This document shows positions 351 to 63,836 of a DNA stretch of 64,000 nucleotides, one piece after another. The translations under genes and the position numbers were made by a program. The notes under the pieces were generated by a model. That model was not told the DNA's origin, did no database searches, and saw only the letters and a list, made by a program, of their open reading frames with translations. The first letter of the stretch is position 1. Every line of letters begins with the position of its first letter. Origin of the DNA: Tribonema minus (lineage: Eukaryota; Sar; Xanthophyceae; Tribonematales; Tribonemataceae); contig JAFCMP010000555.1 of the NCBI GenBank assembly GCA_017506865.1, positions 1 through 64,000 of the forward strand, read 5' to 3'.

Positions 351-360
351 ACCTCAGCTG

Positions 361-31992: not shown

Positions 31993-32036
31993 ATACCCTT
32001 AACCCTAACCCTAACCCTAACCATTACCCTAGGTGC
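31993..32036 (+). repeat. Telomere-like CCCTAA repeats in an IFT144 intron
   Basis: About five CCCTAA-type units (CCCTTAACCCTAACCCTAAC...) on the + strand, 290 bases before the next exon. Confidence 0.9.
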
Positions 32037-34932: not shown

Positions 34933-35062
34933 GTGCTCCGCCTAACCCTAATTTTGACCCTAACCCAAACCAAACCTTATTCCTACCCCTATCCCTCACC
35001 CTAACCAAACCCTGACCCCACGCTGACCTCACCATATGTAACCCTCACTCTAACCCCAACCA
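34933..35062 (+). repeat. Degenerate telomere-like CCCTAA array in an IFT144 intron
   Basis: About 130 bases of decayed CCCTAA/ACCCCAA units run up to 20 bases before the acceptor of the exon at 35084. Confidence 0.85.
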
Positions 35063-35399
35063 CTCATGCGTGCGCCGTGGCAGGACGTCGGCAACAACCG
35101 CGAGGCGCACGCCGTCCTCTACCAAGCGATGCGGCGCCTGGAGGATCAGCGCGTGCGCGTGCCGCAGGCGCTGCGGCACCTGTTCCTGCTGCTGCACTCG
35201 TACACGCTCGCCAAGCGCCTTGCACGGCGCGGCGAGCATCAGGGCGCGGCGCGCATGCTGCTGCGTGTCGCGTGCTCCGCATTACGCTTCCCACGCACAC
35301 GGTGGCCGTGCTCGCGAGTCATCGAGTGCCAGCGCGCGGATCTGCACGAGCGCATTCGAGTACGCGAGCGTGCGGCCGGAGCTCCTTGTGTGGTGCACT

Positions 35400-37988: not shown

Positions 37989-38582
37989 ATTTATTTGTTG
38001 AAGATTGCGGCTTGACCGTATGCCACACAGAAGACACCAATGTACAAGTTCGTTTCCCCCACATCAGTTTGAATTTTTCGGTTGCTGTTTGGTGTGATTG
38101 ACATTTGACCGTGTCCACGATGAGGTGTGGTTGTTGGATTTGTAGCCGTGCTTGCTTGTGCAACTTGGCCTCCTCTGTGTCCTTTAATGAGGTTTACCCA
38201 CATATCCGCATGTACCGACCTGCCTAGTTGTGAAATGGCCAGTCACAATGTGAGCCGGGAGCTGGCCACATCCCAAAGAATGAGTTGTCCGACCACGCTT
38301 TCATCGTTTCAGCCAAGCCAGCTAGGGGTAGGTAGGTATGGAAATGACAGGGTAGGTAGGTATCTTTCCCTCGGCTAGCGATGTTTGAAGAAGCTGCGGC
38401 AGGCGGTGCTTGTGTCGTGGCCAAGCATAGTGCAGTTGGAACCAGGGCGGTTCACCTGTTTGGCTGGCGCGAGCACCTTCAGGTGGTCTGGCTGCCTGGT
38501 ACGAAAGATCGCACAACAGGGTCATACACATCCAACACAGCGCTGCTAGTAAAGCAGGACGACAGGGCGTAAGCCCGTAGCC

Positions 38583-41500
38583 ATGAGTGAAAGCGAGGGC
38601 GACAGCTCCTTTGCTGGTGAAGATGCGCCCAAGGCTGGCGGCGATGCTGGCTCAGACAACAACAGCGACGCTGGCAGCGGCGCAGATAGCGATGCTGGCA
38701 GCGATGGCGGCGCCGCCGCCAAGCGCAAGAAGGGAGGGTCTGATGAGTCCGGTGCATCGGGCAGCGATGAGGGAGAGATATCGGAGGATGGCGCTAAGCC
38801 GAAGAAAAAGAAAAAGCGGCGGAAGGGGGGAGATAACGCTGCTGCTCGGAGGCGAGCCAGGGCGCTGTTTGACGAGGAGGCTGAAGTCAGTGGCAACGAG
38901 GAGAGCGGAGGATCTGTAAGTGCCTGGTGATTGCATGGTTTGCCCCTCATGGCTACTGCCGCACCTAGCAGCTCTGCTGTCATTGGTGCTGCACAGTGCT
39001 GTTGCAAAAGTGTAGTTAACAGCGAAAGCGCTGCAATATCTTCGCTGCAGCATGCACATCGACCATGTCTGAGTGGAGCACTCAACAGGCAACATCACCC
39101 GAGCTGAATTGATCGAATGCGCGCTGCTCCAGGGCAGCACTGCTCTCGCAGTAAAAAACAGGGCAGTGGTGAGATAGCGTTGCCCAAGCAACTTCTCACC
39201 CTATCGTTGGGTGGGTGGCAGCTCAGTTTTGCTTCAACTCATCACTTGAATTGTGGCACCACAAGTCACAGTGTCTCGTATGACCATAAAGTGCGACACC
39301 AAGCTTCGAGTCCACTTCAACTTAATGCATCTTCAAAATAGGTGCAGGCGGTGCTGCTGAAGGGAGTTGCTGCCCCAACTTTGCCATGCAGGCAGTAATG
39401 ACATGGTGCACAATGACGGCAGCATACGTGGTACCCAAACAGCAGCATTGTTCTGCAGTTACCTTACTTAAGCTCTGAAGGCGTTCGCTGCGTAAACGCA
39501 AGTACCATGCCCCGTGTGTGCTGACGCACACCTGCTTTCTACAACTACTTCAACTCTGCAAAAAGTGGAACTAGCAGCACTGCAAGATGTGGTGGGTTGG
39601 GTAAAGCAGCGTGTCAAGGATATTGTAGCTACACTGCAGGATGCCCGCTGTGCAGCATGGGCAGCGGCATGTGCTGCAGACACAGAGCCTGCCTGCAGGC
39701 TTTTAAACCAACAAACGAACCGCAGCAATCCTTATTGTTCAAGCACAGTTTCGTACTGCTAGATGGTACTCAGGAACGCTGCACTGACTGCTCTCGCATA
39801 AGATTGCAGGAAGCGTAACGTCAAGTACCTCTTGCAGTAGTAGGCTACCACCGCGATGCAACTTGAGGTTTGAGTCATGAAGACCTTGCGACAGTGAAAA
39901 ACTACTTCAAGCACATACTGAGCTGAGCCAGCTGTACATGTGGTTAGTATATACTCGTCACATCTACATGTTCGTCAAATCTGCACATGGCAGCTGCCCT
40001 ACACTGCAGTGAAGGCAGGGAGCTGATGGCAGTCTTGTTGCGCACTCGTGGCGAGTGTCACTCTGTTGACATTTGGATTCATCACTGTAGAGACACAAGT
40101 AATCATTGGTGCATCAAGCTGATCGTGCTGGTGCGCCATGTCCCGTACTCTAGGGACGTCATAATTGGACGTTTGTTGCGACTACATGAGCTAGGCAGTA
40201 TGATCACCTACCCAACTTATCCACAGTTCTCCTGTGAGAATGCGTGTACCTGGGCTGACATGAGTGCAGACTCGCCCATTCTATGCTAGAAGTCGCCATG
40301 CAGCTTTGAGGCAATCCGTACTCATTGCCACGCCAGGGGAGAGCAGGCAGGGCAGGCACAGTAACATTGGGCATGTACACAAAGCAATGGCAGCAAGCTA
40401 TATTACAGCACCACTTGGGGTGCTCACTCATCGCCACGATCACCACAAATTTGCTGCTACTTGACTCAGCCTATTCCGTTCACAGGTCAATGGCATTTCC
40501 CCCTAACAATATTATTGCACACGGCTTTGACTGATAAGTGGGCCAGTTCATGTACTATCGCCTGTTTCCATCACTGCTTTGAGAATGAGAGATGCAGCAA
40601 TGTCAGCCATAACATCTTGGTGGTGGCCGATGACAAGAGGAGAGTCACCTCTCCAGCACCTATCATGTTCTTTGAAGCATGTGCATATCGCGCATGCTAC
40701 CACATGTCCCAGCAGCTACTTTGAGGTGTGACATCAGACCTCAGGGAACGCAACCCCTCATATGCGTGCACAAGGGTACACGCCACACCAGGCGGCCTTG
40801 GAGAGACGACGCGCGCAGGGCAACTCCGCAGACTGCACTCTGTCACAGGATGAGGCTCACTCCGCGATAGAATGAGAATCATGTTGCACCTGTCTCAACC
40901 CCTCAATGCACACGACCCCCCCCCCCCCCCCCGTGTCACCGCTCAGGAGGATGAGGGCTCCGACGGCCCCAACGAGTACCAGCGCGACGGCTTTGTGGTG
41001 GACAGCGACGAGGAGGAGGGGCGCCGCGTGAAGGGCGGGCGCAAGAAGAAGAAGCTCACGCGCCTTAAGCGCGTCAAGGAGGCGCTTGCGCCGGTGAGCC
41101 CTGCTGCGCGGCAAATCATGCAGCACCAAACTAACGAACGGTGTAGACGAGTCGGCGGGACGCGATGCAAACCAAGCGAACTCACGCGGCTGCAAAGAAG
41201 CAGAAGCTGAGCGCGCATGCGTGTGCGTTGGGCAGCGTATGCATCACTTTTCAGTGCGTGCTGATGTCAACGTGTGGCGCGCCAAAAGCAGCAGAGCCTT
41301 GCTGCAAACTTCGCACAGAATACCAGCCTGATCAGGCGCTGCTAAAGACCAGGTTCACCGCTTGGTCTGCGCGTTCCAGCAGCAGTGCTCAGGTCGTGAG
41401 TACTGGCAGTTGAAGTTGATGTTTGGTCAGTGCGACAACAAGGAATTCGTACGCCACATTGGGTGTGGCGCAGAAAGTGCATCACACCTTGACGTACGCT

Positions 41501-44500
41501 GTCTAACTCACCTTACATCATGCATCAAGCCAATCTACTTTGAGCTTGCGCAAGACACAGAGGATGGACCGGTGCCGGTCCATCCCAGTAGCATCAGTGC
41601 TCAAATGGGAGCCTTGTCGGTGCACGCAGTCCAAGTTGAACAGCGTGCGATTGAGGCTCTTCTGCACAAGTGCATGATGCGGAGGAGCGGAGCGCTCGAT
41701 GTGAAGTTGTGCATCGCCGGCGCGCGGTGCCCAATGCTCAGGTAATCTGTGTCGTGCTCACTGCAGTCGCCTGTGCTCGTATAGGCTTGTGTGTTTGGTC
41801 GCTGCTTATGCACAAAATCTCACCTTATCAATGTCATTTGCTCCGTGCACCGGCCCTTCTGTTCGGTCACTCAATGCCTGCATTGTGCTCAACGCAATCG
41901 CCGGCACTTGCGCTGCTTCGCAGGACATCGACGATCTGGAGCTGGTGCGCGACGCCCAAATAGCACAGGGCGTCGTGCCGGACGAGGCGCTGGAGAGGGA
42001 GACGCAGGAGGCGCTGGAGGCGCGCAACGCCAAGGTGATCAATGACTGGAGTTGAAGTTTACTGGAGTTGAAATTTATTGGAGTGAGTTTAGCTATTGAG
42101 GATATGTTGGCTACGCGCTACACAGATGCCATTCCCTTGATATGGATTGACTGGAGTTGAAGTTTACTGGTGTTGAAGTTTATGTTGAAGTTCACTGATG
42201 GTCGTGCTACATATGATGTTCTCTGAAAAATATGAAGTGCTTGCCGTGCCGGATGAGGGGCAGGAGAGCGAGGCGCTGGAGGCGCGCAACGCCAAGGTGA
42301 CTGGAGTTGAAGTTTACTGGAGTTGAAGTTCAGTGTTGGGTTGGAATTGACGTTATCTGGATATGTAGTGCTTGCTGTGCCGGACGAGGCGCTGCACAGG
42401 GGAAGGCGAAGGAGGTACTGGAGGCGCGCAACGCCAAGGCAACTGACATGGATTCATGAAATTGAAGTTGACTGCACAGGGCTGTGTTAGCGGCGCAAGA
42501 CAAGCGTGGATCAGCATGCACAGCGCGCATACGTGTTGCAGGCAGTGGTAAAGGTGGAGGCGCAGGAGGCGCTGGAGGCACACAACATGCAGGTGGCAGA
42601 GACGTCAATGAGTTTACTTGAAGTTTATTGGAGTTGAAGTTCAGTTTTGGTTGCGTGCTACACATGTATTCCCCGGATATGTAATGCTTGCCGTGGTGGA
42701 CGAGGCGCTGGAGAGGGAGGCGCAGGAGGCGTGCCATGCTATGGTAATTTGCTGTTGCGCATGGAAGATGAAGTTCTTGGAGATGAAGTTCGCTGGCGAT
42801 GCAACCCGCCTTCGAGCCATGCCCCTTCCTCGTGTCCTAATTATCATGCGACGGATCTTGCTGCCAGCAGTGCTCATTGCCACCCCATCAGAGCCCTAAC
42901 ACCATCGCTTCATAATGCATTGTCTGCGCCCACGGGACCTGGCGCAGCAGCTGTTTGATGACGAGTGGGCTCGCATGACCCCCCTCCCCTGCGCCTCACC
43001 CCTTTCTCGTATCCTCATCATCATGCAATGGGAGCTTGCTGCCAAAGCAGTGCTCATCCCTCCGCTGGAGGCCTGACACCATCCTTTGTAATTCATTGTT
43101 TGCGCCCACAGGACCTGGTGCAACTGTCTGACGAGGATTCGGTCGCACGACCCCCCACCCCCCTTCCCCTCACTTCAGCCATGCCCCCCTCGCTTTCGTC
43201 ATCATCATCATGCAACGGAGCTTTCTGCCACTGGAGGCCTGACACCATAATTTGTAATGCATTGGTTGTGATGCCTTGTTTGTGCCTGCAGGACCTGGCG
43301 CAGCAGCTGTTTGACGAGGAGTCGGACGGCGATGGGGGCGCGCGGCTGCGCGCGCAGGAGGGCGCCCCCGCGCGCCGCCCCGTCCGCGAGGACGACTTTG
43401 ACTCTGAGGACGAGGGCGACTTCATTGTTGACGACATTGGCGGCATGTACAGTCAGGTATTGTTCGGTACTTTATAGAGTACTTCTAAAGTATATGTAAG
43501 TATGTACATCAACAAGTACACTTCTAAGAAGTACACTTTTCGCGCCCTGAGCGAGAATTAATAAAAAGTACACTTTGGCTTTGAGCACGAGGGCGACTTC
43601 ATTGCATTGGCGGGGATATGCGCGTGGACGCCGATGACGAAGGCGACTTCATGTACTTGAAGTACAGCTGAAGGTTGTACCTATGCTCGATTCAGCATAA
43701 ATGCTCGACTCCAAGGACGAGGGCACCTTCAATGTTGACGGCGCATGCAGTCTTGTACTTCGAAGTATGCATTGCTGTGAGCTACACGATCATCGTAACA
43801 CGACAGCAACCATCTGATCTTGCGCCTGTTGATACTGCCAGCCTGAAGCCCACAACGACGGCAACTTCAACAACTGACTTGTCGCTGCCGCTCGTCGCCG
43901 CGTAATCTGTCTACATTGCAGGAGCGCCGCAGGCAGCGGCGCAAAGAGGGGGGCGTCGCGGTGGCCGGGGAACGCATGGGGGGTCCGACTGACGAGCAGG
44001 TGAGGAAGGTTCCTTAAGCGCAAGCGCCGTACTTGAGGAACGTCCGCTCTGCGCAGGCGCTGCACTCAATACTGGTCTGCCGTACATGACTGCTTGCGTG
44101 ACAGAGTAGCTTGAGCTGCGCCTAATGGACGTGCACATGGGCTTTTGTGGGGGCACGAAGGGGCGGGGGGCGCTTGCTGCGGTCGTGCCGTGCAGCAGCA
44201 CTCAGTGGGGAAGTGGACGAACGCTTTGCTGGCCGCAGGACGATACTGGATCATTGCAGATGCACTGCGGACAATCAGCTCCATGTTATGTGATGTACAA
44301 CTTCTGGGTCATCAACGAACCCCCCTGCACGACTGCGGTCCGCACTTCAACTACTTGAAGTTCAGGGGCATCACCGCAGCGCAGCGACTTGCCTTGCACG
44401 TGGGGCGCGCTCAAGCTGGTCCGCCGCCGCGCGCACGCGCCACCGCTCTTGTATCTCACCCCCTCTTCCCGCGATCACCAACCGCACAGATGGAGGAGGC

Positions 44501-47500
44501 CATGGAGCTGTTTGGCGATGGCATCATCGACATGATGCGCGAAGGGGGCGGCGATGGGGGCGACGCCATGGACACGAGCGGCGGCGTAGGCGCGCGCGCG
44601 GCCGCGGCTAAGGCGGCGGCGACGGCGGGCGTGGAGCCCGCGATACTGCGCCAGCACTTCATCACGCGGGTACGTGCCGCTGCAGTCCCCCCCTGCGTGC
44701 GCTTTAGGGTTGGGATTAGGGTTGGGGTTGGGGTTATAATGGGCGTTGACGCGCATCGCGTCGGCGGACGCCCGCGATATGCTACGACAGCACTTCGCTC
44801 GCCCTCGGCCCGCCATGGCGCGCGGCAGCCCCTCCTGCGCGCGCGTTAGGGTGAGGGTTAGGGTTAGGTTAGGGTTTGGATAGGCGCTGCTCTGGTGGTA
44901 GCGCGCAGCGTGTCGGCGGGCGCGCGCGATATTCTGCGACAGCACTTCGCCTCGCCCTCATCCTTCGGGTACATGCTGCAGCCCCCCCTCCTGTGCGCGC
45001 TTTAGGGTTGGGGTTGGGATTAGGGCTAGGGTCTGGATAGGCGCTGCTCTGGTGGTAGCGTGCAGTCACGTACGCTTTGTTTATTCACTATGGGTATGTA
45101 TGCCCCTCAAATTCACCATGGGGTTTGTAAACAATGAATACGCTCGGAGGGTGTATCCCTTGCCTTCACCATGGCTCTGTATCCCCTTCACATTCACCAC
45201 GGCGTACATGCAGACCCCTCGCACCTGCGGCCGCGCCAGGACGACCGCGACACCCAGGCGCGCGACAAGCACCCCTCTTGCATTCGCTAGGGGTATGTGT
45301 CCCTTTGTTGACTATGGGTATGTATCTCACATTCACCATAGGTACGTGCATACCCCTCGCACCCGCTGCCGCGCCAGGACAGCCGCGACATCCAGGCACG
45401 CAACAAGCACCCCTTGCATTCACTAGGGGTGTGCATCACTTGCATCCACCATGACAATGTATCTCTCTCATTCACCATGGGTACCTGTGCATGTATTCCT
45501 CGCACTCAGGATGACCGCGACATCCAGGCGCGCGACAAGCCGGAGCGCATGCAGCTGCGCATGCCCGACCGCGGCGCCATCACGGACGTAGAGCGCAGCG
45601 AGGAGGCGCGCTGGATACTGCCGCAGCTCGACATGGTCGCTGGCCAGCACACGGAGACGCTGCAGGCCATCGAAAAGGTGAGCATGCTACGGTATGTATG
45701 GTGTGTGGCGCATGCAGATGTCGCAGTTACAAGTATGGCAACGGTAATGATGGGGAGGCGCGCTGGATACTGCCGCAGCTCGACATGGTCGCTGGCCAGC
45801 AAATGGAGACGCTGCAGGCCATCGAAAAGGTGAGCATGCTACGGTATGTATGGTGTGTGGCGCATGCAGATGTCGTAGTTACAAGTATGGCAACGGTAAT
45901 GATGAGGAGGCGTGCTGGATACTGCCGCAGCTCGACATGGTCACCGGCCAGCACACGGAGACGCTGCAGGCCATTGAAAGGTGAGCATGCAACGGTATGT
46001 ATGGTGACGATGGGTTGAAGAGGCGTGCGGCATTCTGCCGCAGCTCGACGTGGTCGCCGGCCAGCACACGGAGACGCTGCAAGCCATCGAAAGGTGATGT
46101 GCTGCAGCACATGATACGGTATGTAGCGTATTCTACGGTATGTATGGTGTGTGTCACAGTTACAAGTGTGGAAGCTGATTATGGGTTGAAGACGCGCGTT
46201 GGATACTGCCGCAGCTCGACAAAGTCGCCGGCCAGCACACGGAGACGCTCCAGGATATCGAAAAGATGATCTGTCGCAGCGCATTCTACGGTATGTAGCT
46301 CATTCTACGGTATATACGATGTGTGATGCCTGCAGTTGTTACAGTTACGAGTGTGGTGATCTGTCGCAGTGCACTCTACGGTATACTTCGAAGTATATGA
46401 TGTGGGGTGCCAGCAGTTGTCACAGTTACAATTGTGGCTCTGCTACAGGGCATTCTATGGTAGGTACAATGTGTGCTGCATGCAGTTGTCGCAATTGCAA
46501 GTGTGGTGATCTGCCGCAGTGCATTTCAAGGTATATATGGTGTGTGGACCACAGTGTGGTGCATGCAGTTGTCACTTCCTCGTGCAAATTGAGCCTCATC
46601 GCAGTGCCCCCCCCTGTACGACCTGAACGACCCGCAGTGCCATCATCTGCCGCTCCATCGCATGTCAATCTATCAATCTACATAGCACCCGCGATGTGCG
46701 CAGCGCTTCTGCCGTTCGCCCCCGCGTATGCGCCGCTGACACGCGCGCGCGACCCGCGACGCGTCCCCCAGGTGCTGTTCTTCATAGAGGCGGAGAGCAT
46801 GGAGGTGCCCTTCATCACGCACAACCGCAAGGACTGGTACCACCCGCACCTCCGGCGCCAGGACCTCTGGCGCATCTACGATCTGGACGAGAAGTGGGAG
46901 AAGATCAGCAAGCGCAGGTATGTATATGAGCTAGTGCGCTCGCATGATGCAATTCAAGTTGAAGTTCTGCGCCCGCGCCTTTCAGAGACTGAGTCTCAGA
47001 CCGTATTCCTAAGCATCGGTGATGAGTCAGCACTGCAACAGCTGCGGTGTCGCCATCGCCGCCAAGTGTAACAATTCCTTTACACGGTGGTATGGCACAC
47101 TGTTGTCCCCACCCGCCCGCTCACGCCGCTTCAACCCCCCCCCCTCCCCCCCCCCCCCGACCCTAACCCTAACCCTTACCCCAGGGAGGGCGTCGCCAAG
47201 GTTGCCAACGCGTTCTGGCGGCGCCTGCGCGGCGACTCCGACTCGGAGGACGACGAGGGCCGCGGCGAGTCAGAGTCGGCGTACTCGAGCGAGACGGAGG
47301 AGAAGCGCCGCAGCAGGCTCGCTGAGGAGGTAGCGCGCCGCGAGGACGTCGAGCTCCGCATTCGCCGCGCGGAGAAGGCGCTCGAGGCGGCGCGCGGCGC
47401 GCTCGCGGAGGCGGAGGCGGCGGCGACGGCGGGGGCGGAGGCGGTGAACGCGCAGCGCGCCGCGGCGGCAGCGGCGGCGGCGGCGGCGGCGGCGGGGGCG

Positions 47501-50500
47501 GGCGGCGAGGGCGGGGACAGCAGCGACGAGGAGGGAGCGGCGGTGCGCGCGGCGGCGGCAGCGGCGGCGGCGCGCGCGCCCGCGACGGACGCGGAGCTCA
47601 CGGCGGAGCTCGACCGGGTAAGTATCCGTCTTGCTTGCTCAGGATCACCTATGAACTGCCAGGAGTCGATGAGTAATTGTTCTTTTTTGCGACTTGTGTC
47701 ATTACAGTTAGATTGCAAAGAGCAAATCTGAATTTCAACTCAACTCTTATTGCCGGAGCGGAACGGAGTGGTCCTCTCACGAGCCGGACTCTGTTGTTCG
47801 GTGCGACAGCGCGGCACAGCGAGGCAATACTTCGACACGAGTGCAACGCAACCATGTTAGCGTTGAGGATGGGATAACAGAGTACAGTTGCTCAAGACGA
47901 GGGCAGGGTCAGCAGGTTAAAGTCAGGGTTGCGCGTGGGGTTAGCACATGACCCGGCGCGTAGACGGAAACAGCCAGTCAAGCCGAGGCGTGGCACTGTG
48001 GTGGACGAGATGAAAATTGCACGATGAAGACGCATTCAGAGGCAGCGGCTGCGGCGGTGTTAGGGTTTCCCTAACCCCAACTCTAATTTCAACGTGCCTA
48101 ACCCTAACCCTAACTCTACATCGTCCCCTGCGAAGCTTGCGCGCCACCGCGAAATGGCGCACCTGGCATCGCGGAGCTGTGTTGCAGAACAGTCTCGCCA
48201 ACGCGTGCAATCGCGATGTTCTGCTAGAGTGTTTGTTGTAGCAGCTGTGGGATCCCAAGGCTGTCTGCTCTGTGCCCAGCGCACGTCCTTCACAACATCA
48301 ACTTCAACTTGCATCATAGAATCATTTAGCACTCGCCGTGCAGCACATTGCAGGACCCTCTGTGTGACACGATGGGCAGACCTTGAGTTGAAGGTTTACC
48401 CACAGCGTATCACGCTGGCGTCAGCGGAATATATCTGGGGCCAGAAATGATCGTGATTGTAATACCACTTCGGCTATTGTTGCTGGTGTGCTCTGAATGT
48501 GGGTCATACTGGCAATAGTCAGGTTGAACTTTGGCCTTACAATGTGAGCGTCACTTCACACGCTGCGACTGCAGACTCGCCGCGCCGCCGAGACGTCCAA
48601 CACGTACCTGGAGGGCCTGAAGGGCGAGCTGGCCGTGGAGCTGCAGGAGCAGCAGCAGGACGCGCAGGAGCGGCGGCGGCGCCAGCGCCAGCGCAAGCAG
48701 GCAAAGCGGTATGTAATCAGACAGAATACATTTTTGGCTTATGGCTCTTGAAGTAGAACTGTCTCAAGCGCAACTGAGACCGTTTCAGCATGGCTACAAT
48801 GCAGGAGTGACAGAGCAGCAGCAGGACGCGCAGGAGCGGCGGCGGCGCCAGCGCCAGCGCAAGCAAGCAAAGCGGTATGTATGCATGTAGGCTTTCAGGT
48901 TGTGGAGTAGAAGTTTCGCAAGTAATCCCGAGACCGTTGCAGTATGGCCACAGTGCAGCAGTGGCAGTGCACAGTCAGCAGCAGCAGGACGCGCAGGAGC
49001 AGCGGCGGCGCCAGCGCCAGCGCCAGCAGGCAAAGAGGTTTGCATTTGAATTAGGCATTCCTGTTAATGAGGTCAGAAACTCTTAGAGTCATCAATGCTG
49101 TTTCGGTAGGGGGCACACTGCAGGAGTGACAGCGCACAGCAGGACGCGCAGGAGCGGCGACAGCGCCAGCGCCTGCGCAAGCAGGCCCACACTTGAAGTG
49201 CATTGTGTTCTTCTGCTAGTGCGTTCACAACTTGAAGCGCACATGCGCATTGACACAATTTCAAATACTGGCACAATTTGAAGTACGTCTACGACATATG
49301 CATCACGCCTGCGGCAGGGCAGGCCCGCTGTGACGCGCGAACATGCGTCACAGGCAGCGACGACGACGAGCGCGCACACGCCCGTACTTCAATTACACGT
49401 GTGCACAACTTCAAGTCAAGATGCAGTACTGCAAGTGCACTGCATGCATCACAACAAGCGCGCGCGCGCCTGGACACGTCTGTGTGCCTGAAGTACACAT
49501 GCATAGACTGGTGATAACCGTCATGTCGATCATCTGGGCTGTTAGATGCACGACGCGAGGACAGTGATGCACTACACATAAACGTAGCGGACGTTCAGTA
49601 CAGCAGCTTGAATGGCGGCAGTGCGCTCGTGCACTTGAAGTACGGGCACGAGCAATGATCCGGTGCATACATAGCGGACGTTCGGGACAGCATATCGGAT
49701 GGTAGCGGGTACGCGTGTGCGGTTCACGTACGGAAGTATGCGCGCGCGTCGCGTTTGCTGGCTCGGGCGTGAACGCGTGCTCGTGCAGGCTCGTTCGTCC
49801 CTGCCAGTGGTGCGGCGCACACACGGCGGACATAGCTTGCAGAGTATGAAAAGCGCTGAGTTCAGCCAAGTTTGAATTGGAGGAATGAATTAGTACAAAC
49901 AGAAATCAGGAGTGCACGTGTGTACTCCATGTGTACTATGCGCCGGATCGTTGCACGCGCCCGTACTTCAACTGCACACGTGTGCCCGCTACCATTCAAC
50001 ATGCTGTACTGAACGTCCGCTATGTTTGCGCCGCGTCATTGGCAGGGAGGAGCGCGCGCGCGCGCGCAAGGAGATCCGCGACTCGCTGAGCGAGGAGGCC
50101 GCGCTGTTCCCGGAGACGTACAGCTCGCTGCTCGCGGAGGTCGACGAGGACCAGCTCAGGGACCTGCAGGTGGGTTCCTGTACCGTCCTGCCTGTTTCTC
50201 GACCAGTATCTCTTTGTGGTTGGTTGCCTTCGTGCACATACTTCTTCAATATCAAGTTCAATTTGAAGTTTCCAGGCTGTTGTTCCGGGAGACGTACAGC
50301 TCGCTGCTCGCAGAGGTCGATGAGGACCAGCTCAGGGATTTGCAGGTGGGCTTTTGTACCATCCTGCCCTTTTCTCGACCAGTATCTTTGTGGTTGGTTG
50401 CCTTCGTGCACATACTTCTTCAATATCAAGTTCGATTTGAAGTTTCCAGGCTTGTGTTCCAAGAGACGTACAGCTCGCTCTCGCAGGGGTCGGCGAGGAC

Positions 50501-53500: not shown

Positions 53501-56500
53501 AAGAAGTTGATGTTTGTGTCAAGGACGAGGTGCGTTGCCCATTGAAGTTGAAGTTTACGTGAGCAGTGGCGCGGCTACGCACACGCGGCGACAGGCCAGG
53601 GGCCCGAGGTGCTCGCGGCGGGCATGCGGGGCACGACGAATGCGTTTATGGACGAGGTGCGTCGCCTGTTGAAGTTTGCGGTAGGTTAAAGTTTGCTAGA
53701 GAGGCGCGCGCGCTGCTGCTGCACCCGTCGCCGCCACAAATGTCGTGCGTCCTTTTAGAGCATTCTCGCACGCAAACGGCGGACGTGCGTGGTGCGACGG
53801 TCGCGTCCAAGGACAAGGTGCGTCGCCCGTTGCAGTTTGCAGGAAGTTGAAGTTTGTGGGAGAGCTGCGCGCGCTTCTACGCCCGTCGCTGCCGCGAATG
53901 TTGGGCGTTCTTTTTTGGCATTCTCAAACGCAAGGGGCAGGCGTGCGCGGCGCGACGGACGCTGTCAAGGACGAGGTGCGTCGCCTGTTGACTTTTGCCG
54001 TAATGCTGCGCGCGCGGCTGCGCTCGTCGTCGCCGCGAATGTCGTGCGTCTTTTGGGGACCTTCTCGAAATTCGAAAGCCGTTGCGGCACCGTATGTGAG
54101 CGGCCGCGCGCCTGATGCTTCACCTTGGATGAGCTGGCCCCTTTCAGGTGCATGTGGTGACTTTTGCCGTAAAGCTGCGCGCGCAGCTGCGCTCGTCGTC
54201 GCCGCGAATGTTGTGCGTCTTTTGGGGACCTTCTCGAATTTTGAGAGCCGTTGCGGCACCGTATGTGAGCGGCCGCGCCTGATGCTTCACCTTGGATGAG
54301 CTGGCCCCTTTCAGGTGCATGTGGTGACTTTTGCCGTAAAGCTGCGCACGCGGCTGCGCTCGTCGTCGCCGCGAATGTTGTGCGCCTTTTGGGGACCTTC
54401 TCGAAATTCGAGAGCCGTTGCAGCACCGTATGTGAGCGGCCGCGCGCCTGATGCTTCACCTTGTATGCAGCTGGCCCCTTTCAGGTGCATGTGGGGGTCG
54501 TTGTGGGCCTGTTCTGTAAGTGTGCATCTTTAGGTGCCTTCTTGTAGGGGTCAGCGGCGGCAGTGACGCTTCAGATTCTTGAAGTTCGTGTCGCGCTGCA
54601 CCGCCCAGCGGCGGCCGCTGAAGCGCTTCTCCCCTTGAGTGCAATCGCGGCCGCTGAAGCGCTTCTCCCCTTGAGTGCAATCGCACCACGTCCATGCGCC
54701 TTGTTTCAGGTTGACATTTCTTGAAGTTCATGTCATGCAGCACTGCTCAGCGGCGGCCGCTGACGCGCGCTCCCTCGAGCGCTGTCGCACCACGTCCATG
54801 CGCCTTGTTGTAGGGGTGACGCTCCAGGTTCTTGAAGTTCATGCGCAGCACCGCGCCACGACCGCTGAAGCGCGTTCCTGTCGAGCGCTGTTGCACCACC
54901 TTAACGACGGGCTCACTCACAACCGCTGCCGCCACACCACGCGCTTGTTGCCCTTTTCAGGCGGCCGTCTTGAAAGCGGTGCAGCACATGCTGGCGTGCG
55001 AGATTGCGGCGGAGCCGCGCGTGCGCCGCGCCTGCAGGCAGGCCTACCGCGCAAGGTGAGATGCTCTCGGTAGTGCCTGCTGGTCTGCTAAGCTCTGTGT
55101 GTTGGTCTGAGCTTTTTTTTTTCCATTGAGCTTCATCTTCTTTATTGCAGTGAATGAGCGCTATTTTTTCGAAGCGCTGTATTGTGCTCCTGGCTTCGGC
55201 CCCCTCCTCCCCCCTTACAGTAGGCTCACAAGCTGAGCGTCATCATCGTTTTCATATCCTCTAGCGCAGCATTGCTTCACAAAGTGGTGAGGGCGAGGCA
55301 AGTGCGCCATGTGATACCTCGAATGGCACAGCACCTCTCTCGCCCACCACTCACGCCATCAGTGTTAGGAACAGTTTATCAACTTAGCACCATTACTGCT
55401 GTACCTTGGTCTACAAGTTGTTCATGTTGCTCCTGCAGAGCTTCACTCGCCTTCTTCTGCGCTGCCGACGCCTGCTCCAGCGCTCGGTATCAAAGGGCAT
55501 TTCTCAACTTTGCCGATGCACCAGCTATTGCCTCTAATGCAGCTGTATCAAACTCTTCGATTGCTGCCAATCAGCTTGATGTGTGAGTTGGCACGCTGCC
55601 GACTCCCTCCCCCGCCGGGGCCTGCGCGTCGAAATGAGTCAAAGATAGAAGAGCTCTGAGTGACAAGCAGTTGTTAAAATTGAATGCCTTCCACCAATGA
55701 CCGTGGTCGCCGCTGCTGCGGCAATTGGCCACGAGTCAGACAGTGCCACCATATACCCATTCTACGCCTGGTCCCCCTTCGCACCATCACTGCTGTACTG
55801 AGCGTTGCCACTGCTTGCCCATATTGCGCGCTCTTGCTGAGCAGCGCCACGCTGTCCACGGCGCCGACCGCGCGCGGCAAGCACGAGATCGACTTCTTCC
55901 ACCCGCAGCATGGCCTGCAGTACCTGGAGCGCAAGGTACGTGCGGTGTGTGAGCCGGTGTTTCCAAGTCAGAGTCTCAAGTCAGAGTGTCAATGTTGCTT
56001 CGTTCACCCGCAGCTCGGTCTGCAGTACCTGCAGGGCAAAGTAGGTCCGGTGTGTGAGTCAGTGTTTCAAGTCAGAGTCGCAAGTCAGAGTGTCCATGTT
56101 GGTTGCATTGCAGTAGGGTGGTTTGCGTGCGTGAAGGACTTTCTTAAAGTGAGGATTAGGGTTAGTAGGATTAGGGTTAGTAGTGTTAGGCAAGTAGTTG
56201 AAGTGCACACCTTCAACAATGTTGCGGTGACACTGGCCAGTGAACGCACGTCAGCAGCGACAGGAGCTGGCGGTGTATTGCCAGTGTTTGTGCTTGCATG
56301 TCGTACTACTGTTTTTGGCACACGTATGCAGCGCAGAGGGGGGCGGCGGCATTGCGATACTGCTGGCGCTGATAGTAACATGCGTTGCTTTCAACATGCC
56401 TGTGAGAATGCACAAGTGCAAGCGCCACCGTCGCAACTGAGTGGTTTCGAAGCACATTACTGTGTTGCATGATGCCCAGCACGCATGCGTGAATGTGCCA

Positions 56501-59500
56501 CTGACAACCTCCACCATTGCAGCATGTTTACTTCTGTAGCATATTCTGGTGTGGGTGGAAGTCTAGCATGCGAGTCAGCCAACGACTTCTTGCCTGTACT
56601 TGATGTCCCTGCTTGCCAATCCGCAGCCGCTCCTGCAGTACCTGCACATGAGCATGGAGAGCAGGCTGGGCGTTGGCGGCGACGGCGCGCAGTTCCTGCG
56701 CATTGAGAGGGCGCAGAAGGTGATTACTTCAACATGAATCTCAACTGAGGTCCACCATCGTATCGAGAGAGCCTTTGCATGAACATTGCTGCGCGCTTCA
56801 CGCACCAAGTGCGGCGCAATTCATGCTCCGGCCTCGGCTAACAGTGAGACCCGCAAAACGTGGAGGGCCTTGGCATGGCACATTGCTGCACGCTCTCATA
56901 CAACGAATGTGGAGTGGTTCATCCTCGTAAATTCATCTTCAGGCCTCGGCTATCGCCGGGAGCCACCCGACCAAGCCGCAAGGTGCACTTCTGAAGCTGC
57001 GACTGCCTCAACTACCCATTCGAGTCACCGCAGCGCCTGGAAGACGATACGGCGCCTTGACTGTAGAAATGAGGTTTTGCAGTAGTTCCGCAGCGTGTCG
57101 CTCTGTCGTCCTCCTGTGCCGATGACGTGCCGCAGCTGCCGCCTGCAGATGCAGCGCGCGGGTCATCAGACGCGCGCCCTCCCCACCACCGTGGTTTGGC
57201 GCTGCTGCTGCCTTGCAACATCAATTCTTCAACTTGCGGTGCGCCAGGTCTCCAGCAACCGCAGGCCCGAGATCCGCTGCTGGCCTATCAGCTGCGCGTC
57301 GCGACAGTTGCCCGCTACATACGCGGAATCCTGCCCGACGTGCCGTCGTCAGTTGGCAGGACGGCCTTCTGACGTACCCGATTCCGTTGGCGGTTTCAGT
57401 TCTTCACCTTGAAGTGGGACCAGTCCTTGGCGATGGCGCGCCACCATTCCCCTTGCCAGCCCACTTGCTGCGATGTTTGGCTGCGTCAACCCTGAACCCT
57501 GACCCTGCGTCCAATCCTAACCCTCAACTGACGCTCCGCTCAACGTGCCAGGACGGCCTTCTGTCGTACACGATTCACCCGCCCGAGAGGCTCGTCCAGG
57601 GCAATGACTATGACACGTACGGAGTCATCGTCACCTCGTTTGAGGTGAGAGCGCAATCACGTTGGCACGCTGTTGGGTGTCTACTTGGTGCGTGCTTTCG
57701 CCGTACATATGTGTATGCGAACCGCATGAGGGTATGTATGTACAACGACCATGATATGTACCGCGCGATCATCACCACTTGCAAGGTGAGCGGAGTGCAA
57801 CGGGGTGCTCGCGTGACATCAACACGACTCGTGAGGAATTCTGAGAGGCGCGGAATACGGTCCGGAACGTCCTTTTTTCTGGTGCATGGCATCAATCCGG
57901 AGTGCAGCGCCATCGGCCGAGAACGGGTCTTTGCATATCCTGCTTCCTGTCATCATCCCCCACCGTGGGTGCACTTCAACCTGATCGCTACCGCATGCCA
58001 CATTGGCAGCAGCGCTGCCCCAGAAAATTGACACTCCCTGCTCATGTCCTCGATGTACACAACCAAGCGCACAGAGCTCGCCCCGAGCGCGGTACTTCGT
58101 CTAACTTCAACCCCTACTTCAACTTGTGCTGCCCCGCCGCAGCTGGACCTGGACGTGTTTATGCGGCTGCTGGTGCCGTACTACAACCCGGTGAACCCCG
58201 CTGCGTCAGGTAAATGGACATGAATCAGAAGATTGCAGATCTCTAGGTGACAAGAGGTGGTCAGCCGTCAAGTTGAATGCCTTCCACCAATGACCGTGGT
58301 CGCCGCTGCTGCAGCAATTGGCCACGAGTCCAACAGTGCCATCGTAAACATCGTGCACACAGCGGAGGTGTCCAATGTTGATTCCTTTGTGGTTCTACTT
58401 ATGCTCAGTGTCTCGCCATTCTCGAATGTAGGCGTTTTGGTGACTGTGCGCGCGACGTGTCTTCATGGAACTGTGCGGCAAACTCACGACCGTCCACCGG
58501 GCGACGTCGTGCTGCTGCTGCTGCTGTCCCTGGATGGTACCCACACAGCGCACTAGACCTGAACCCCAGGAAAGCTACGACACACTAGGAAAGCTACGAC
58601 ACATTTTGAGACCTCGACGCGTAATGTACGCGCAAGCCGCATGCCGCTGGATGTCATAGTTGGAGGCAGTCACGAACCAGACCGTGCTGATCCCACGCGC
58701 ACGGAGAGCTTGGCGAGGCTCTACATTGCCAGGGCTTGTGAGATGTGAAGGCTGCAGGTCGAGAAGCTGCACGACCTCGCCCATTACTCAACTCAATATA
58801 CGCAGCAAAGACGTCGCGAGAATTCGAATGAGGCAGCATCGGAGCTCATTGGCAAGGCGGCCGAGCGCCCCCTGGCTGACAGTGTCCGGAACCCTACGAA
58901 GCTCTTGTGCTGCGTAGGCCGTAAGCGGTAAGACACAAATTTGTTTGATTGATCGACCAATCTGTTCGTTCAGCACTCGTCATCATCTTCATCACACACA
59001 GCCAGAGTGCAACACGGCAACGGCATCGCAGCTTGCGATACAGAGCAGCAACCTTGATGCTGAGACCATGATGTTGAGCAGGAGGCGCTCGGCCGCCTTG
59101 CCAATGAGCTCCGATGCTGCCTCACTTGAATTCTCAAGACATCTTTGCTGCCTGCGAATAACGAGTGAAGTAGTAGGCTAGGTCGTGCAGCGTCTTCTTC
59201 GCCTGCAGCCTTTGGGCACTGTCCATACCACGAGTCCTGGCAGCGTGGAGCCTCGCCATTGGAGTCGCCGAGCTCTCCGTGTCGGCGCGATCAGCGCTGT
59301 CTGTTCACGACTGTGCCTCCAACTATGACCTCCAGCAGCATGCCGGTCGCGCGCACGTTACGCGTTGTGGTCTCAAGACGTGTGTCGTGGCTGTCCTGGG
59401 CATCGGGTCTAGTGCGCTGTGTGGGTACCACCCAGGGACAGCAGCAGCAGCAGCACGACGCCGCCCGCCTCGGTCCATGCCTTTGATGCATTTTCTGTTG

Positions 59501-62437
59501 CGTCTGCTGGTACGCCGATCGCCTAGTGTGTCCTAACGTCCTCAGCTGTGCTTTCGTCCGGTCGATGCCGAGCGCCTCAACTTGGCTCTGAACCATCACC
59601 ACTTACATAAAATGCCGTCATAGCACAACACACTTTACCAACTACTTTGGTCAATGTGCATTCCATATCAAAGTTTGGTTGGTCGTATCTAAATAAAACT
59701 TGAAAACAAAATGACTCACCTTGTGCCGCACTCCCCTTTATAGCACAACGCATTTTACCAACTACTTCGAAGTACTTGAGTTTATGTGCATTACACATGG
59801 CAAAATTTGGCATGTCGTAATTAAAATCATACTTCAAGAAGTACTTGGAAGTAGTTGGAAAACCAAATGACTTGCATCTTGCCACATATCCCCCCCCCCC
59901 CCCATCTCTGCCGCAGGCGTCGTCGCAAGCCAGTGGGCGGCGCTGCGGCAGGAGGTGCTGCGCAGCGCCATCGTCGACCACCTGCTGCCCTCGCTGGAGG
60001 CGGAGGCCGTGCAGGAGATGCGCACCAAGTGAGTCGCTCACTCACTCACTCACTCATTTACTCAGTCATAATGAATTCACCTGTTTTGTCAACACAATCC
60101 ATGGATGCGCGACGTCACCGCCGACTGCCTGCTGCCGCCGCTCCGAGGCGGACGCGGTGCGGGAGCTGCACACCAATCGAGTCACTCACTCACTTGTTCA
60201 TTCACTCAATTATAATGGATTCAGCCGCTTTGTCAATGCGCGATGCCACCGCCGACTGCCTGCAGCCGTTGTCTCAAGGCGGATGCGGGCATCAGATGCG
60301 CACCAGATGAGTTCACTCGTTCACTCACTCACATTCAGTCATTCACTCTGGTGGGAATGCATACTGCATGTGAGACTCGTGAGTCGCTCATTCACTCACT
60401 CATGCATGTATTCATCCTGTTGGGACTCAAACCTGCATGTAAGACTCAACGTGCAGTTCGTACACAAACCACATGTATAGGGTGGTGTGAAGCGCTGCTT
60501 ATTGTACTTGCTGTGTGCGCACAAGCGGCAATTGAGGTCTCATGTACTTGCATATCAGGTGTACTGTACACATTTGTTTGCCAACGAAGCTCACTACAAC
60601 GGTCGCATGCTTGCTCACTGTGGCAGAGCGCGCGAACAAGTGGCACTGGAGGCCGCCAATGCCCTGGGCAGGAGACTCGAGGTACGCCACCCTGATTCAC
60701 GATGAGATTAGCGCGTATGCACCAGAGGTCCTTGTCGGCAGGCAACTGACCGCCTTTACTGCGGTCAGTTTGTGGGGGTCGTTGGTGGATTTCCTGCCGC
60801 CGTGTGTGCGCCGAAAAACTTCAAGCTCGGTCCATGTATGTTTGCTGGTGCATGGTAGAAGTATTACACCTTCAGGCTCTCCACTGGGCAGGAGACTCGA
60901 GTTTCAACACGCATATGGCCGCCTTGGTCCTCCGAGAGCCGCACATTACATGCTTTGAATGTGTTGAATGTATTCATGTTCATTTGTCGTGCGTGGTACA
61001 CAAAGTCACTTGCAAACCGCGATCGTCACTGTGTGCGCGTGCTCTCTTGCGGCAGATGTCATGCGCCCTACATACTTCTACTTTGAATGTGTTTCATAAG
61101 CATGTTCATTCGGCGTGCTTGGTGCACTAAGTCACTCGTGCACCTCAATTGACACCATGTGAACTGCAATCCACACTGTGCGCACATGCTCTGTTGTGGC
61201 AGATGGTACCCTGGTCTTTGAAACAACGACCTTCTTGACCGCCTCACTTCTGACCCCCGTGAATCATGACTGACAATGCGTGCATGTGACTGGTGTGCGG
61301 CAGATGGCATTGCGGTCCCCCAAACACCTTATATACTTCAAATGTGTCATATCATGCTCATTCATCACGCATGGTGCACACAGCCACTGATCAACTATGG
61401 CCGACAACACGCGCGTGCCGTTGTTGTGCTGTATGGCAGATGGCACTGCGGTCCCCCGAGAACCGCACCCCACATACTTATATGTGTTACATTTGTGCAT
61501 GTTCATTCCTCATGCACAAAGTCACCAATTGACACTACGTAAACTGCACTTGACACTGTGCGCGCGCGCTCACTCGCGGCAGATGGTGCTGTGGTCCACT
61601 GAAAAAACGACCCTCTTGACCGCCTCACCCCTGACCCTGGTTAATCATGACTGACAATGCGTGCGCGTGACTGGTGATGGCAGATGGCTTTGTGACCCCG
61701 CAAGCACTTTCTTTCATGTACTTCAATGTGTCATCTTTTGTTCATTCATCACGCATGGTGCACACAGCGACTGGTGAACACCGTGACCGATAACCTGCGC
61801 GTGCCGTTGCTGTATGGCAGTTGGCGCCGTGGTCCCGAGGAAACAACACTCCACGTACTTCAAATTTGTGCAGGTTCATTCGTTGTGCAGGGTGCACAAA
61901 GTTACTGGTGAACCGCAGTCGTCACTATGTGACCGGCAATTGACACTGTGCGCGCGTGCTCTCTTGTGGCAGATGGCACCGTGGTCCCTCGAACACCGCA
62001 CCCCCTTCGAGCGCCTCACCAACGACCGCACGATCTGCACACTGTACACGTCGAGTGCGTCATAGAAGTACAAGTATGTTCACTTATCATGCATGGTGCA
62101 CCCACCCACTGACAAATCATCCCTGACAATGCGAGCGCGCCGCTGCCGCATTGCAGATGGCGTCGTGGTCCCCCGAAAACCGCACCCCACATACTTTGAA
62201 TGTGTCCCGTAAGCATTTTTACTGCCGTGCGTGGTACATAAAGTCACTGACGAACCGCATTTGACAGTATGTGAACCGCACTTGACACTGCGCACGCGTG
62301 CTTGCTCGTGACAGATGGCGCCGTGGTCCCCCGAAAACCGCACCCCCTTTGAGCGCCTCACTAATGACCCGCACGAGCGCAAGCAGCTGGACTCTGTGTA
62401 CGCTGTGGGCGTCCACATGTCCAGGGAGTCATCAGAG
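38583..62437 (+). CDS. SPT6: Transcription elongation factor / histone chaperone SPT6, 21 exons, 3' end beyond the window
   Basis: Exons: 38583-38915, 40947-41093, 41924-42034, 43292-43456, 43922-43999, 44490-44669, 45510-45677, 46772-46917, 47185-47617, 48575-48708, 50046-50169, 51887-51970, 53048-53272, 54961-55055, 55845-55935, 56627-56719, 57552-57644, 58143-58209, 59917-60028, 60627-60681, 62315-62437. All junctions are GT-AG and in phase, giving 1,019 codons without a break. Landmarks: acidic/basic N-terminus; NEYQRDGFVVD (exon 2); EGDFIVDD (4); DKPERMQLR (7); MEVPFITHNRKDWYHP and DLWRIYDLDEKW (8); RYDRDAYRHCRRAGLRRLAD (13); EPRVRRACRQAYRAR (14); GKHEIDFFHPQHGLQYL (15); DGLLSYTIH (17); GRRLEMAPWSP (20/21). 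SPT6 travels with RNA polymerase II and restores nucleosomes. The RNase H-like core, helix-hairpin-helix, S1 and SH2 parts must follow past 64000. Exon 9 adds an Ala/Glu-rich insert. Introns make up about 87 % of the span. Confidence 0.93.
42246..42743 (+). repeat. Four downstream echoes of SPT6 exon 3
   Basis: The 3' end of exon 3 (GACGAGGCGCTGGAG...CGCAACGCCAAG followed by GTGA) recurs in decayed form at 42246-42296, 42377-42438, 42554-42592 and 42693-42743. Spacing is about 140-155 bases after the first. Between copies lie repeats of GGAGTTGAAGTTTACTGG. Confidence 0.9.
42905..43145 (+). repeat. Two upstream echoes of SPT6 exon 4
   Basis: The sequence leading into exon 4 (ATGCATTG...CAGGACCTGGCGCAGCAG) recurs upstream at 42935-42967 and 43112-43145. 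Each copy has its own intron end (TTCATAATGCATTGTCTGCG or similar); spacing is about 178 bases. Confidence 0.88.
43573..43755 (+). repeat. Three downstream echoes of SPT6 exon 4
   Basis: Fragments of the exon 4 end (GACGAGGGCGACTTCATTG) recur near 43573-43615, 43629-43654 and 43703-43752 in increasingly altered form. Confidence 0.75.
44670..45035 (+). repeat. Two downstream echoes of SPT6 exon 6 with co-amplified TTAGGG-like tracts
   Basis: The exon 6 end (GCGATACTGCGCCAGCACTTC) recurs at 44760-44799 and 44911-44960. Each unit is followed by a CCCCCTGCGTGCGC-like segment and a TTAGGG-rich tract (44704-44734, 44848-44879, 45003-45032), so the telomere-like repeats were duplicated with the exon edge. 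Confidence 0.88.
45200..45420 (+). repeat. Two upstream echoes of SPT6 exon 7
   Basis: GACCGCGACATCCAGGCGCG, the exon 7 start, recurs with changes at 45236-45271 and 45377-45412. The same CCCCTCGCACC-type intron end precedes both. The CATTCACCATGGGTATGT segment between them is also repeated (45085-45485). Confidence 0.88.
45751..46580 (+). repeat. Four downstream echoes of SPT6 exon 7, then intron-only repeats
   Basis: The exon 7 3' part (GGATACTGCCGCAGCTCGAC ... ATCGAAAAG|GTGAGC) recurs at about 45751-45831, 45910-45981, 46018-46094 and 46189-46266. Identity falls away from the exon. The first two units also keep the intron start (ATGCTACGGTATGTATGGTG). From 46265 to 46580 only the intron part (ATTCTACGGTATG...GCAGTTGTCACAGTTACAA) continues, about four more times. 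Confidence 0.93.
47130..47184 (+). repeat. Poly-C and telomere-like repeats forming the 3' splice site of SPT6 exon 9
   Basis: A C-rich run (47136-47158) is followed by ACCCTAACCCTAACCCTTAC and then CCCAG. Here telomere-like C-strand repeats directly serve as the pyrimidine tract of the exon 9 acceptor. Confidence 0.85.
48050..48118. repeat. Telomere-like repeats, both orientations, SPT6 intron 9
   Basis: GTTAGGGTTT is followed at once by CCCTAACCCCAACTC and then CTAACCCTAACCCTAACTC. Confidence 0.85.
48813..49186 (+). repeat. Three downstream echoes of SPT6 exon 10
   Basis: The coiled-coil coding end of exon 10 (CAGCAGCAGGACGCGCAGGA...AAGCAGGCAAAGCGG|TATGT) recurs at 48813-48872, 48975-49038 and 49137-49186, each after a GCA(G)GAGTGACAG or similar lead. 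Confidence 0.9.
50284..51165 (+). repeat. Six downstream echoes of SPT6 exon 11
   Basis: The exon 11 end (GAGACGTACAGCTCGCTGCT ... CTCAGGGACCTGCAG|GTGGG) recurs near 50289-50345, 50461-50517, 50632-50676, 50801-50851, 50955-51001 and 51119-51160, about 170-190 bases apart. The intervening intron text (CTTCGTGCACATACTTCTTC...TTGAAGTTTCCAG) is copied too. Decay increases with distance from the true exon. Confidence 0.93.
51411..51452. repeat. Head-to-head telomere-like repeats, SPT6 intron 11
   Basis: TTAGGGCTAGGTTTAGCGTT and AGGGTTAGC run into CTAACCCTAAGTCTAAC, a near palindrome of degenerate TTAGGG units. Confidence 0.85.
52030..52200 (+). repeat. Two downstream echoes of SPT6 exon 12
   Basis: GAGGACGCGCCATCGCAGTC, the exon 12 end, recurs at 52037-52080 (with GCAG|GTCGG retained) and at 52148-52197 (strongly changed). 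Confidence 0.9.
52210..52960 (+). repeat. Six upstream echoes of SPT6 exon 13
   Basis: The exon 13 start (CGCTACGACCGCGACGCGTA, CCGCCACTGC) and its GCGCAG acceptor recur near 52212, 52355, 52485, 52640, 52797 and 52920. Unit length is about 125-160 bases with a repeated CACCCACGCATCGATGATCA/CTCACTGGCGCAC middle. Copies nearer the true exon at 53048 are not consistently better preserved. Confidence 0.92.
53371..53990 (+). repeat. Downstream echoes of SPT6 exon 13
   Basis: TACGCGCACGCCGTCGCCGC through AAGGACGAG|GTGCGTCGCC recurs at 53374-53473 (nearly perfect). Partial copies lie near 53521, 53571-53657, 53790-53826 and 53940-53980. Confidence 0.9.
53991..54490 (+). repeat. Three near-identical 165-170-bp tandem repeats in SPT6 intron 13
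   Basis: Units begin TTTTGCCGTAA and end CTTTCAGGTGCATGTGGTGA (about 53991-54162, 54163-54327, 54328-54490). They differ at only a few positions, so this is the youngest amplification in the gene. Each unit carries a strong acceptor-like CCCCTTTCAG|GTGC. Confidence 0.93.
54560..54900 (+). repeat. Tandem repeats of about 125 bp with a nested 38-bp duplication, SPT6 intron 13
   Basis: Three units share CTTGAAGTTC(A/G)TG, GCGGCCGCTGA and CACCACGTCCATGCGCCTTG. Inside the first, GCGGCCGCTGAAGCGCTTCT is repeated at once. Confidence 0.85.
55684..55752 (+). repeat. Dispersed repeat shared by SPT6 introns 14 and 18
   Basis: ATGCCTTCCACCAATGACCG and the following 50 bases recur almost unchanged at 58277-58345. 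The two introns therefore share a young duplicated segment of at least 70 bases. Confidence 0.88.
56005..56090 (+). repeat. Downstream echo of SPT6 exon 15
   Basis: CTGCAGTACCTGCAGGGCAA followed by GTAGGTCCGGTGTGTGAG repeats the exon 15 end and its donor at 55905-55960. Confidence 0.85.
57341..57790 (+). repeat. Echoes on both sides of SPT6 exon 17
   Basis: GGACGGCCTTCTGACGTACC at about 57358 copies the exon start at 57551. AACGACCATGATATGTACCG...AAG|GTGAGCGG at 57736-57792 copies the exon end and donor at 57602-57652. Confidence 0.85.
58505..59459. repeat. Large inverted repeat (foldback) in SPT6 intron 18
   Basis: The left arm, about 58505-58872, is matched in reverse complement by the right arm, about 59081-59459. 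For example GTGCTGCTGCTGCTGCTGTC at 58510 pairs with GACAGCAGCAGCAGCAGCAC at 59437, and GGAGCTCATTGGCAAGGCGG at 58840 pairs at 59090. Arms are roughly 370 bases, diverged by many substitutions, with a spacer of about 210 bases. No terminal motif or target duplication is evident. Confidence 0.85.
59615..59870 (+). repeat. Two-copy tandem repeat before SPT6 exon 19
   Basis: ATAGCACAACACACTTTACC near 59622 recurs as ATAGCACAACGCATTTTACC near 59741. Both are followed by AACTACTT, TATGTGCATT and an AAATGACT(C/T)- segment. Confidence 0.85.
60080..60320 (+). repeat. Downstream echoes of SPT6 exon 19
   Basis: Degenerate copies of the exon 19 end and the following TGAGTCGCTCACTCACTCAC tract recur at about 60095-60190 and 60239-60330. 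Confidence 0.8.
60875..62195 (+). repeat. Ladder of about nine upstream echoes of SPT6 exon 21 (and one of exon 20)
   Basis: CTGGGCAGGAGACTCGAG at 60887 copies the exon 20 end. The exon 21 start with its acceptor (GGCAGATGGCGCCGTGGTCC, then CCCGAAAACCGCACCCC) recurs in altered form near 60916, 61199, 61302, 61436, 61579, 61680, 61817, 61971 and 62153, before the true exon at 62315. Between copies, CATGCATGGTGCACACAG and GTGACTGG-type text repeats as well. Confidence 0.92.
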
Positions 62438-63789: not shown

Positions 63790-63836
63790 ACCCTACCACC
63801 ATGTCAATCCCAACCCTAACCCTAACCTTAACCCGC
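63790..63836 (+). repeat. Telomere-like CCCTAA repeats near the right edge
   Basis: CCCAACCCTAACCCTAACCT and flanking degenerate units; these do not form a terminal telomere, since unique sequence follows. Confidence 0.85.

Follow-up and report, generated by a model that had tools for sequence, protein, structure and literature searches.

The introns of the SPT6 gene in the DNA analysed here (a stretch of 64,000 nucleotides from Tribonema minus, hereafter the window) probably grew largely via recurrent local tandem duplication of segments of roughly 100–200 bp, a reading to which we give a probability of about 0.7. The introns carry tandem arrays that are private to each of them, many of the repeated units straddle splice junctions, the copies are of different ages, and introns 3, 6, 12, and 13 are filled by arrays almost completely.

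Exons 1–21 of the gene occupy 38583..62437 on the + strand, and the gene extends past the last modelled exon, beyond the window. The exon edges were placed by eye and then checked by a script. The 21 modelled exons comprise 3,057 nt (1,019 codons) without any stop codon, the 20 modelled introns (267–2,031 bp) are all of the GT-AG type, and every junction is phase-compatible. A preliminary description of this DNA had stated that the 1,019 codons of the true exons are intact and in phase, and this model bears it out. The open stretch over exon 8 matches the Pfam domain HTH_44 (the SPT6 helix-turn-helix domain), and in a phmmer search the candidate exon chain, exons 7–9, matched PDB SPT6 chains (best E = 1e-12). 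Exons 14, 13, and 15 were weakly placed by a piece of human SPT6 (E = 0.004, 0.056, and 0.34, respectively). Judged from its sequence, the gene is eukaryotic SPT6, and we infer that the modelled splice sites are those used by the cell. An SPT6 query found no relative among viral contigs, and an Rfam search gave no match. A tRNA-Arg call by ARAGORN at 53032-53129 overlaps the start of exon 13 and is probably a false positive.

Copies of the exon edges were sought by comparing each of the 40 edges (up to 120 nt of exon plus 30 nt of intron) with its own adjacent intron. This search gave 56 matches, 37 on the donor side and 19 on the acceptor side, which belong to 17 of the 40 edges and 14 of the 21 exons. 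The lone match of exon 16 (E16; the other exons are abbreviated likewise) sits within a copy of E15, because 24 nt at the end of E15 resemble the start of E16; leaving E16 out reduces the numbers to 55 places, 16 edges, and 13 exons. The support for E20 consists of one 18-nt match. When non-flanking introns were searched identically, 752,392 bp yielded 3 matches, as compared with 56 in 41,596 bp of adjacent introns, so that the chance expectation for the adjacent introns derived from the non-flanking ones is 0.17 matches. At a stricter score cut-off, the numbers were 46 and 0, respectively. When the exon part alone was used (70 nt of the exon end, or the entire exon where shorter, with the intron part excluded), the ends at 19 of the 40 edges outscored all the non-flanking introns and 100 dinucleotide shuffles. 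The exon-edge copies in the adjacent introns are therefore confirmed as real and far above chance, as are the exon-edge echoes that the preliminary description had claimed for the SPT6 introns.

The matches vary in extent: 25 of the 56 cross the junction and have 8 nt or more to either side of it, 27 are purely exon-side, and 4 are purely intron-side. The deepest reach of any copy into its exon is 102 nt, and none of the 56 matches contains a whole exon. The copies also have a definite order: copies of the end of the upstream exon lie near the donor and copies of the start of the downstream exon lie near the acceptor, which is what junction duplication predicts. One to seven copies are recognizable per edge. 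The 45–50 copies, 13 exons, and units of 100–190 bp given earlier are all close to these measured values, and the earlier statement that this is not ordinary tandem exon duplication agrees with the finding that no copy holds a whole exon. The further claim that the copies keep the exon edge together with its splice site is true of many of them but not of all.

The arrays and copies are distributed along the gene as follows.

41974..42745, + strand: E3 donor-side array, first part of intron 3 (exon 3 is 41924-42034)
42810..43328, + strand: E4 acceptor-side array (exon 4 is 43292-43456)
43572..43740, + strand: three short E4 donor-side copies from the edge search, exon part alone
44628..45065, + strand: E6 donor-side array (exon 6 is 44490-44669)
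45080..45540, + strand: E7 acceptor-side array (exon 7 is 45510-45677)
45600..46573, + strand: E7 donor-side array, unit about 152 bp, main copies from 45754, 45904, 46017, and 46188
48647..49186, + strand: E10 donor-side array, copies from 48813, 48977, and 49118
50105..51157, + strand: E11 donor-side array, six copies, unit about 176 bp
51926..52207, + strand: E12 donor-side array, unit 111 bp
52233..53096, + strand: E13 acceptor-side array, six copies
53171..54494, + strand: E13 donor-side array, continuing into a 167-bp x 3 array at 53989-54494
54563..54899, + strand: tandem array with no detectable exon sequence, ending 61 nt before exon 14
55893..56104, + strand: E15 donor-side two-unit array, unit 105 bp
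57354..57384, + strand: E17 acceptor-side single copy, 28/31 identical, AG kept
59959..60447, + strand: E19 donor-side array
60911..62376, + strand: E21 acceptor-side array, seven copies, occupying most of intron 20

Tandem Repeats Finder and self-BLAST found head-to-tail copies of a single unit in the SPT6 introns, that is, tandem arrays. Introns 3, 6, 12, and 13 are nearly all array, with one array from either end, and merely 91, 26, 36, and 129 nt, respectively, lie outside the arrays. Exon sequence is not detectable in the 167-bp x 3 array, and part of the E21 acceptor-side array consists of a composite unit some 381 bp long. The introns contain the motif TTGAAGTT 23 times and control DNA of similar length 2 times, the intron count being partly due to array copies; intron 3 has 9 of the occurrences and intron 13 has 8, both introns being array-filled, and others are in intron 11 and elsewhere.

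The repetition was also examined with the exons removed. Local direct repeats then cover 8,694 of 20,798 intron bp (42%) and occur in 11 of the 20 introns, as compared with 684 of 20,798 bp (3.3%), in 4 of 20 equal pieces, of other window DNA (8906-21200 and 28600-38500 joined, with the large retroelement copies excluded), in which an ORF with FNIP repeats is the only recognized gene and which may itself be transcribed. None of 200 shuffled introns contained such repeats. Within the window, these repeats are concentrated in the SPT6 introns. Their offsets cluster at 105–177 bp, and the larger offsets include multiples. Among the repeated 30-nt segments of the whole introns, 708 of 3,592 are exon-like and 2,884 are not, which indicates that intron-derived parts are repeated too. 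No array sequence matched any other SPT6 intron when the 20 introns were compared, so each array is private to its own intron. The sole match between introns is a dispersed repeat of introns 14 and 18, located outside the arrays (about 130 bp, 81% identical; 55631-55756 and 58217-58349, respectively). Two results count against the explanation by tandem duplication: an intron-only array is absent in 9 of the 20 introns, including the 2,031-bp intron 1, and the scarcity of arrays in the control DNA is not explained by it.

Several other elements are present in the window. Large retroelement copies, inverted relative to each other and about 97–98% identical, occupy 106-8820 and 21214-28441; in the former, a frame of about 2,900 aa is open and matches the reverse transcriptase family RVT_1 weakly, below the Pfam cut-off, and in the latter the frame is split into shorter ones. 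A 467-aa open frame with a FNIP-repeat match is located at 36585-37985. Neither this ORF nor the reverse transcriptase had relatives among viral contigs. Short interstitial telomere-like runs (CCCTAA/TTAGGG) were found at 31989-32031, 44704-44884, 47161-47172, 48060-48113, and 63814-63825, several of which fall in SPT6 introns. Intron 10 contains an inverted repeat (49580-49733/49937-50041, about 82.7% identical) and intron 18 another (58498-58874/59079-59467, 75.7% identical), each possibly a foldback element; a comparison of 49000-51000 with phages gave no match.

The copies differ in age. Over 13 edges, the identity of the exon-proximal copy lies between 78% and 98%, which points to duplication events of different ages. 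The E7 donor-side main copies have exonic identities of 97.4, 94.7, 89.5, and 88.5% with growing distance, and the E10 donor-side copies, in the order listed above, have 98.4, 96.6, and 85.5%. For counting such ladders, matches with less than 15 nt of exon depth or less than 25 aligned nt were dropped, as were edges left with a single copy. Over all arrays, the younger copy is nearer to the exon in 44 pairs and the opposite holds in 30 (p = 0.12). In the donor arrays, the numbers are 30 and 12 (p = 0.015); the acceptor arrays have no age gradient with distance (14 versus 18 pairs), which counts against the explanation by tandem duplication. Clean or nearly clean donor ladders are those of E7, E10, and E13, and the E3 ladder runs in the reverse direction. 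The copies had been called progressively altered, which fits the donor arrays as a group, E3 excepted, but not the acceptor arrays.

The kind of change was also examined. Substitutions between exon and copy occur at codon positions 1, 2, and 3 with frequencies of 0.084, 0.107, and 0.142, respectively (p = 0.001), and the excess at position 3 fits protein selection acting on the exon alone. Among the 158 changes private to copies, 45 would be synonymous and 113 nonsynonymous; the would-be synonymous share of 28.5% is close to the 27.8% expected without constraint (p = 0.86). By this measure, the copies decay free of coding constraint. The changes private to exons number 6 synonymous and 7 nonsynonymous, not enough to indicate protein selection on their own (p = 0.21). 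Simple neutral decay does not predict one further result, which hence counts against the explanation by tandem duplication: the similarity between echoes is higher in exon-derived parts (0.75) than in intron-derived parts (0.68), and this was so in 8 of 12 arrays, although the contrast is blurred by detection through exon similarity and by extrapolated junction positions. Conversion by cDNA, specially preserving the exon-derived parts, was considered and dropped, given the modest size of this difference and the minority of exon-like segments among the repeated ones.

The proposed course of events is as follows. Many founding segments would have straddled a splice junction and thus comprised up to 102 nt of exon edge, the splice site, and adjoining intron. 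Their duplication would provide two splice sites, and use of the one closest to the complete exon would preserve the frame. The frame-keeping copy would then stay exon, and the other would be spliced out within the lengthened intron; donor-side copies would consequently be found downstream and acceptor-side copies upstream. Duplication together with frame retention would therefore explain, without special machinery, the copy rule set out in the preliminary description. In later rounds, slippage or unequal exchange between units, or fresh duplication at the same edge, would give rise to one to seven copies, and the spliced-out copies, being unconstrained by coding, would decay. The ancestral introns were presumably short, and if they were shorter than the unit, most duplications would have had to cross a junction. 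The underlying DNA process may have been microhomology or replication slippage. Recurrent junction-spanning duplication, longer introns, and decaying copies are thus retained from the earlier interpretation; targeting of junctions by the process is, in view of the lenient null model below, no more than possible.

Targeting of junctions by the duplication process is possible, and the corresponding alternative, which we regard as unlikely, is that duplication starts at the exon–intron boundaries and adds units beside the exon, at donors above all; possible triggers would be R-loops or breaks linked to transcription or splicing. Every one of the 16 intron-only arrays has an end no more than 91 nt from a splice site, and in 11 of them the distance is 10 nt or less; the 16 include two weak or distant pairs, which were kept in the placement tests (intron 10, 49374-50011; intron 18, 59620-59825). 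A strict null model, in which the arrays were randomly placed wholly inside introns, matched this in 0 of 100,000 trials. In a lenient model, the arrays were allowed to reach 60 or 100 nt into exons, junction-crossing arrays being otherwise clipped. The number of arrays within 10 nt is ordinary under this model (P = 0.12 and 0.35 for reaches of 60 and 100 nt, respectively), the number within 40 nt gave P = 0.020 and 0.064, and the summed distance remained below expectation (P = 0.005 and 0.022). Contact with exon edges is nearly expected because the arrays fill the introns so fully. A strong claim of junction targeting was accordingly demoted to a rival explanation: the strict null was rejected, yet the signal was mostly gone under the lenient one. 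The donor ladders (p = 0.015, or 0.0005 with the exception E3 dropped post hoc) and the near absence of arrays from the control DNA also speak for a junction-directed process. However, the acceptor arrays form no ladder, the case rests on one gene, and the control DNA may be transcribed. It is a tentative and rather doubtful extension that junction-coupled duplication, adding unit upon unit beside exon edges and mainly at 5' splice sites, is the main route of intron growth in this lineage; if so, every intron would hold a dated record of its own lengthening.

It is very improbable that the copies are functional, i.e., alternative exons or decoy splice sites retained for SPT6 regulation. Of the 26 copy donors, 19 still have GT, and of the 17 copy acceptors, 15 still have AG. 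Such retention would suit a role of this kind, but it is about equal to that of the flanking positions, so that selection neither in favour of decoys nor against them is apparent. Moreover, the copy-private changes ignore the reading frame, and all the copies are partial exons. Among the 1,415 intronic GT sites, real donors excluded, 11 reach or exceed the score of the median real donor; copies make up 8 of the 11, and these 8 are confined to introns 7 and 13. These strong donor-like copies could plausibly be decoy splice sites, and they raise the question of how splicing finds the true edge when copies account for most of the top-scoring intronic donor-like sites.

We consider it equally improbable that the introns owe their birth to tandem genomic duplication of AGGT-holding exon segments, with the echoes as birth marks, although a mutation of the same kind is outlined as intron gain in PMC3443670. 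Such a birth puts the start of the downstream exon behind the donor and the end of the upstream exon before the acceptor. The order can be tested in introns 3, 6, and 12, in which both flanking exons have array copies at their own ends; it is the reverse there, and this origin is contradicted for these three introns. For intron 15 alone, the 24-nt similarity between the end of E15 and the start of E16 would fit. This similarity across intron 15 (55845-56719) is the top one among 20 end–start pairs; the start of E16 may be a captured copy of the end of E15, or the likeness may be due to chance, and the junction of intron 15 may have another history than those of the other introns. An assembly artefact from mis-joined or error-rich reads is extremely unlikely, as the copies differ by about 2–26% from their exons and carry their own indels, and the exons stay open over 1,019 codons.

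Intron lengthening is usually credited to transposons or to unrecognizable drift. In growth by tandem duplication, the constrained exon edge serves as a fixed reference, from which the age, order, and size of the lengthening events are readable in the sequence.

Several known systems resemble the SPT6 arrays in part. Internal gene duplication, as Gao and Lynch reportedly described it in 2009, involves small duplications that arise often and have their ends in exons as well as introns. The SPT6 duplications share these properties, but they occurred in repeated rounds at the same edges and formed multi-copy decaying arrays over much of one gene. Potato RdRp is said to have gained an intron through tandem genomic duplication. 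This route of intron gain, as outlined in PMC3443670, is also a small local intragenic duplication with splice-site sequence whose extra copy is hidden by splicing. The SPT6 introns, however, appear to have been lengthened when they already existed rather than created, their copies straddle a real junction and, in introns 3, 6, and 12, lie in the opposite order, and the exon echoes at the far ends, AGGT to AGGT, that mark such a gain were not found in introns 3, 6, and 12. Tandem repeats are likewise concentrated in the introns of Daphnia pulex, in which the excess concerns units of 1–5 and 7–8 bp and units above 8 bp are fewer (PMC3152781), whereas the SPT6 offsets are 105–177 bp and the units bear exon edges. 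Introners, summarized in PMC9860276 as transposable elements across many genes, mainly in fast-evolving lineages such as green algae, also shape introns by repetitive DNA, but the SPT6 arrays are private to each intron, and the one match among the 20 introns lies outside the arrays. Tandem exon duplication with mutually exclusive exons differs in that no SPT6 copy is a whole exon with both splice sites, and the copies are unconstrained. In addition, relatives of Chlamydomonas have conspicuously long introns of unknown advantage (PMC8226300), and a green alga rich in repeats is reported in PMC5741210. The open-licence literature, represented mostly by titles and the beginnings of abstracts, gave no account of junction-straddling arrays that lengthen introns; still, the earlier statement that no described system is like this one was too strong, since tandem genomic duplication and intronic tandem repeats are already described. 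The ingredients of the SPT6 arrays are thus known, and their combination, for which no description was found, varies known types of mutation in a striking way within a single gene.
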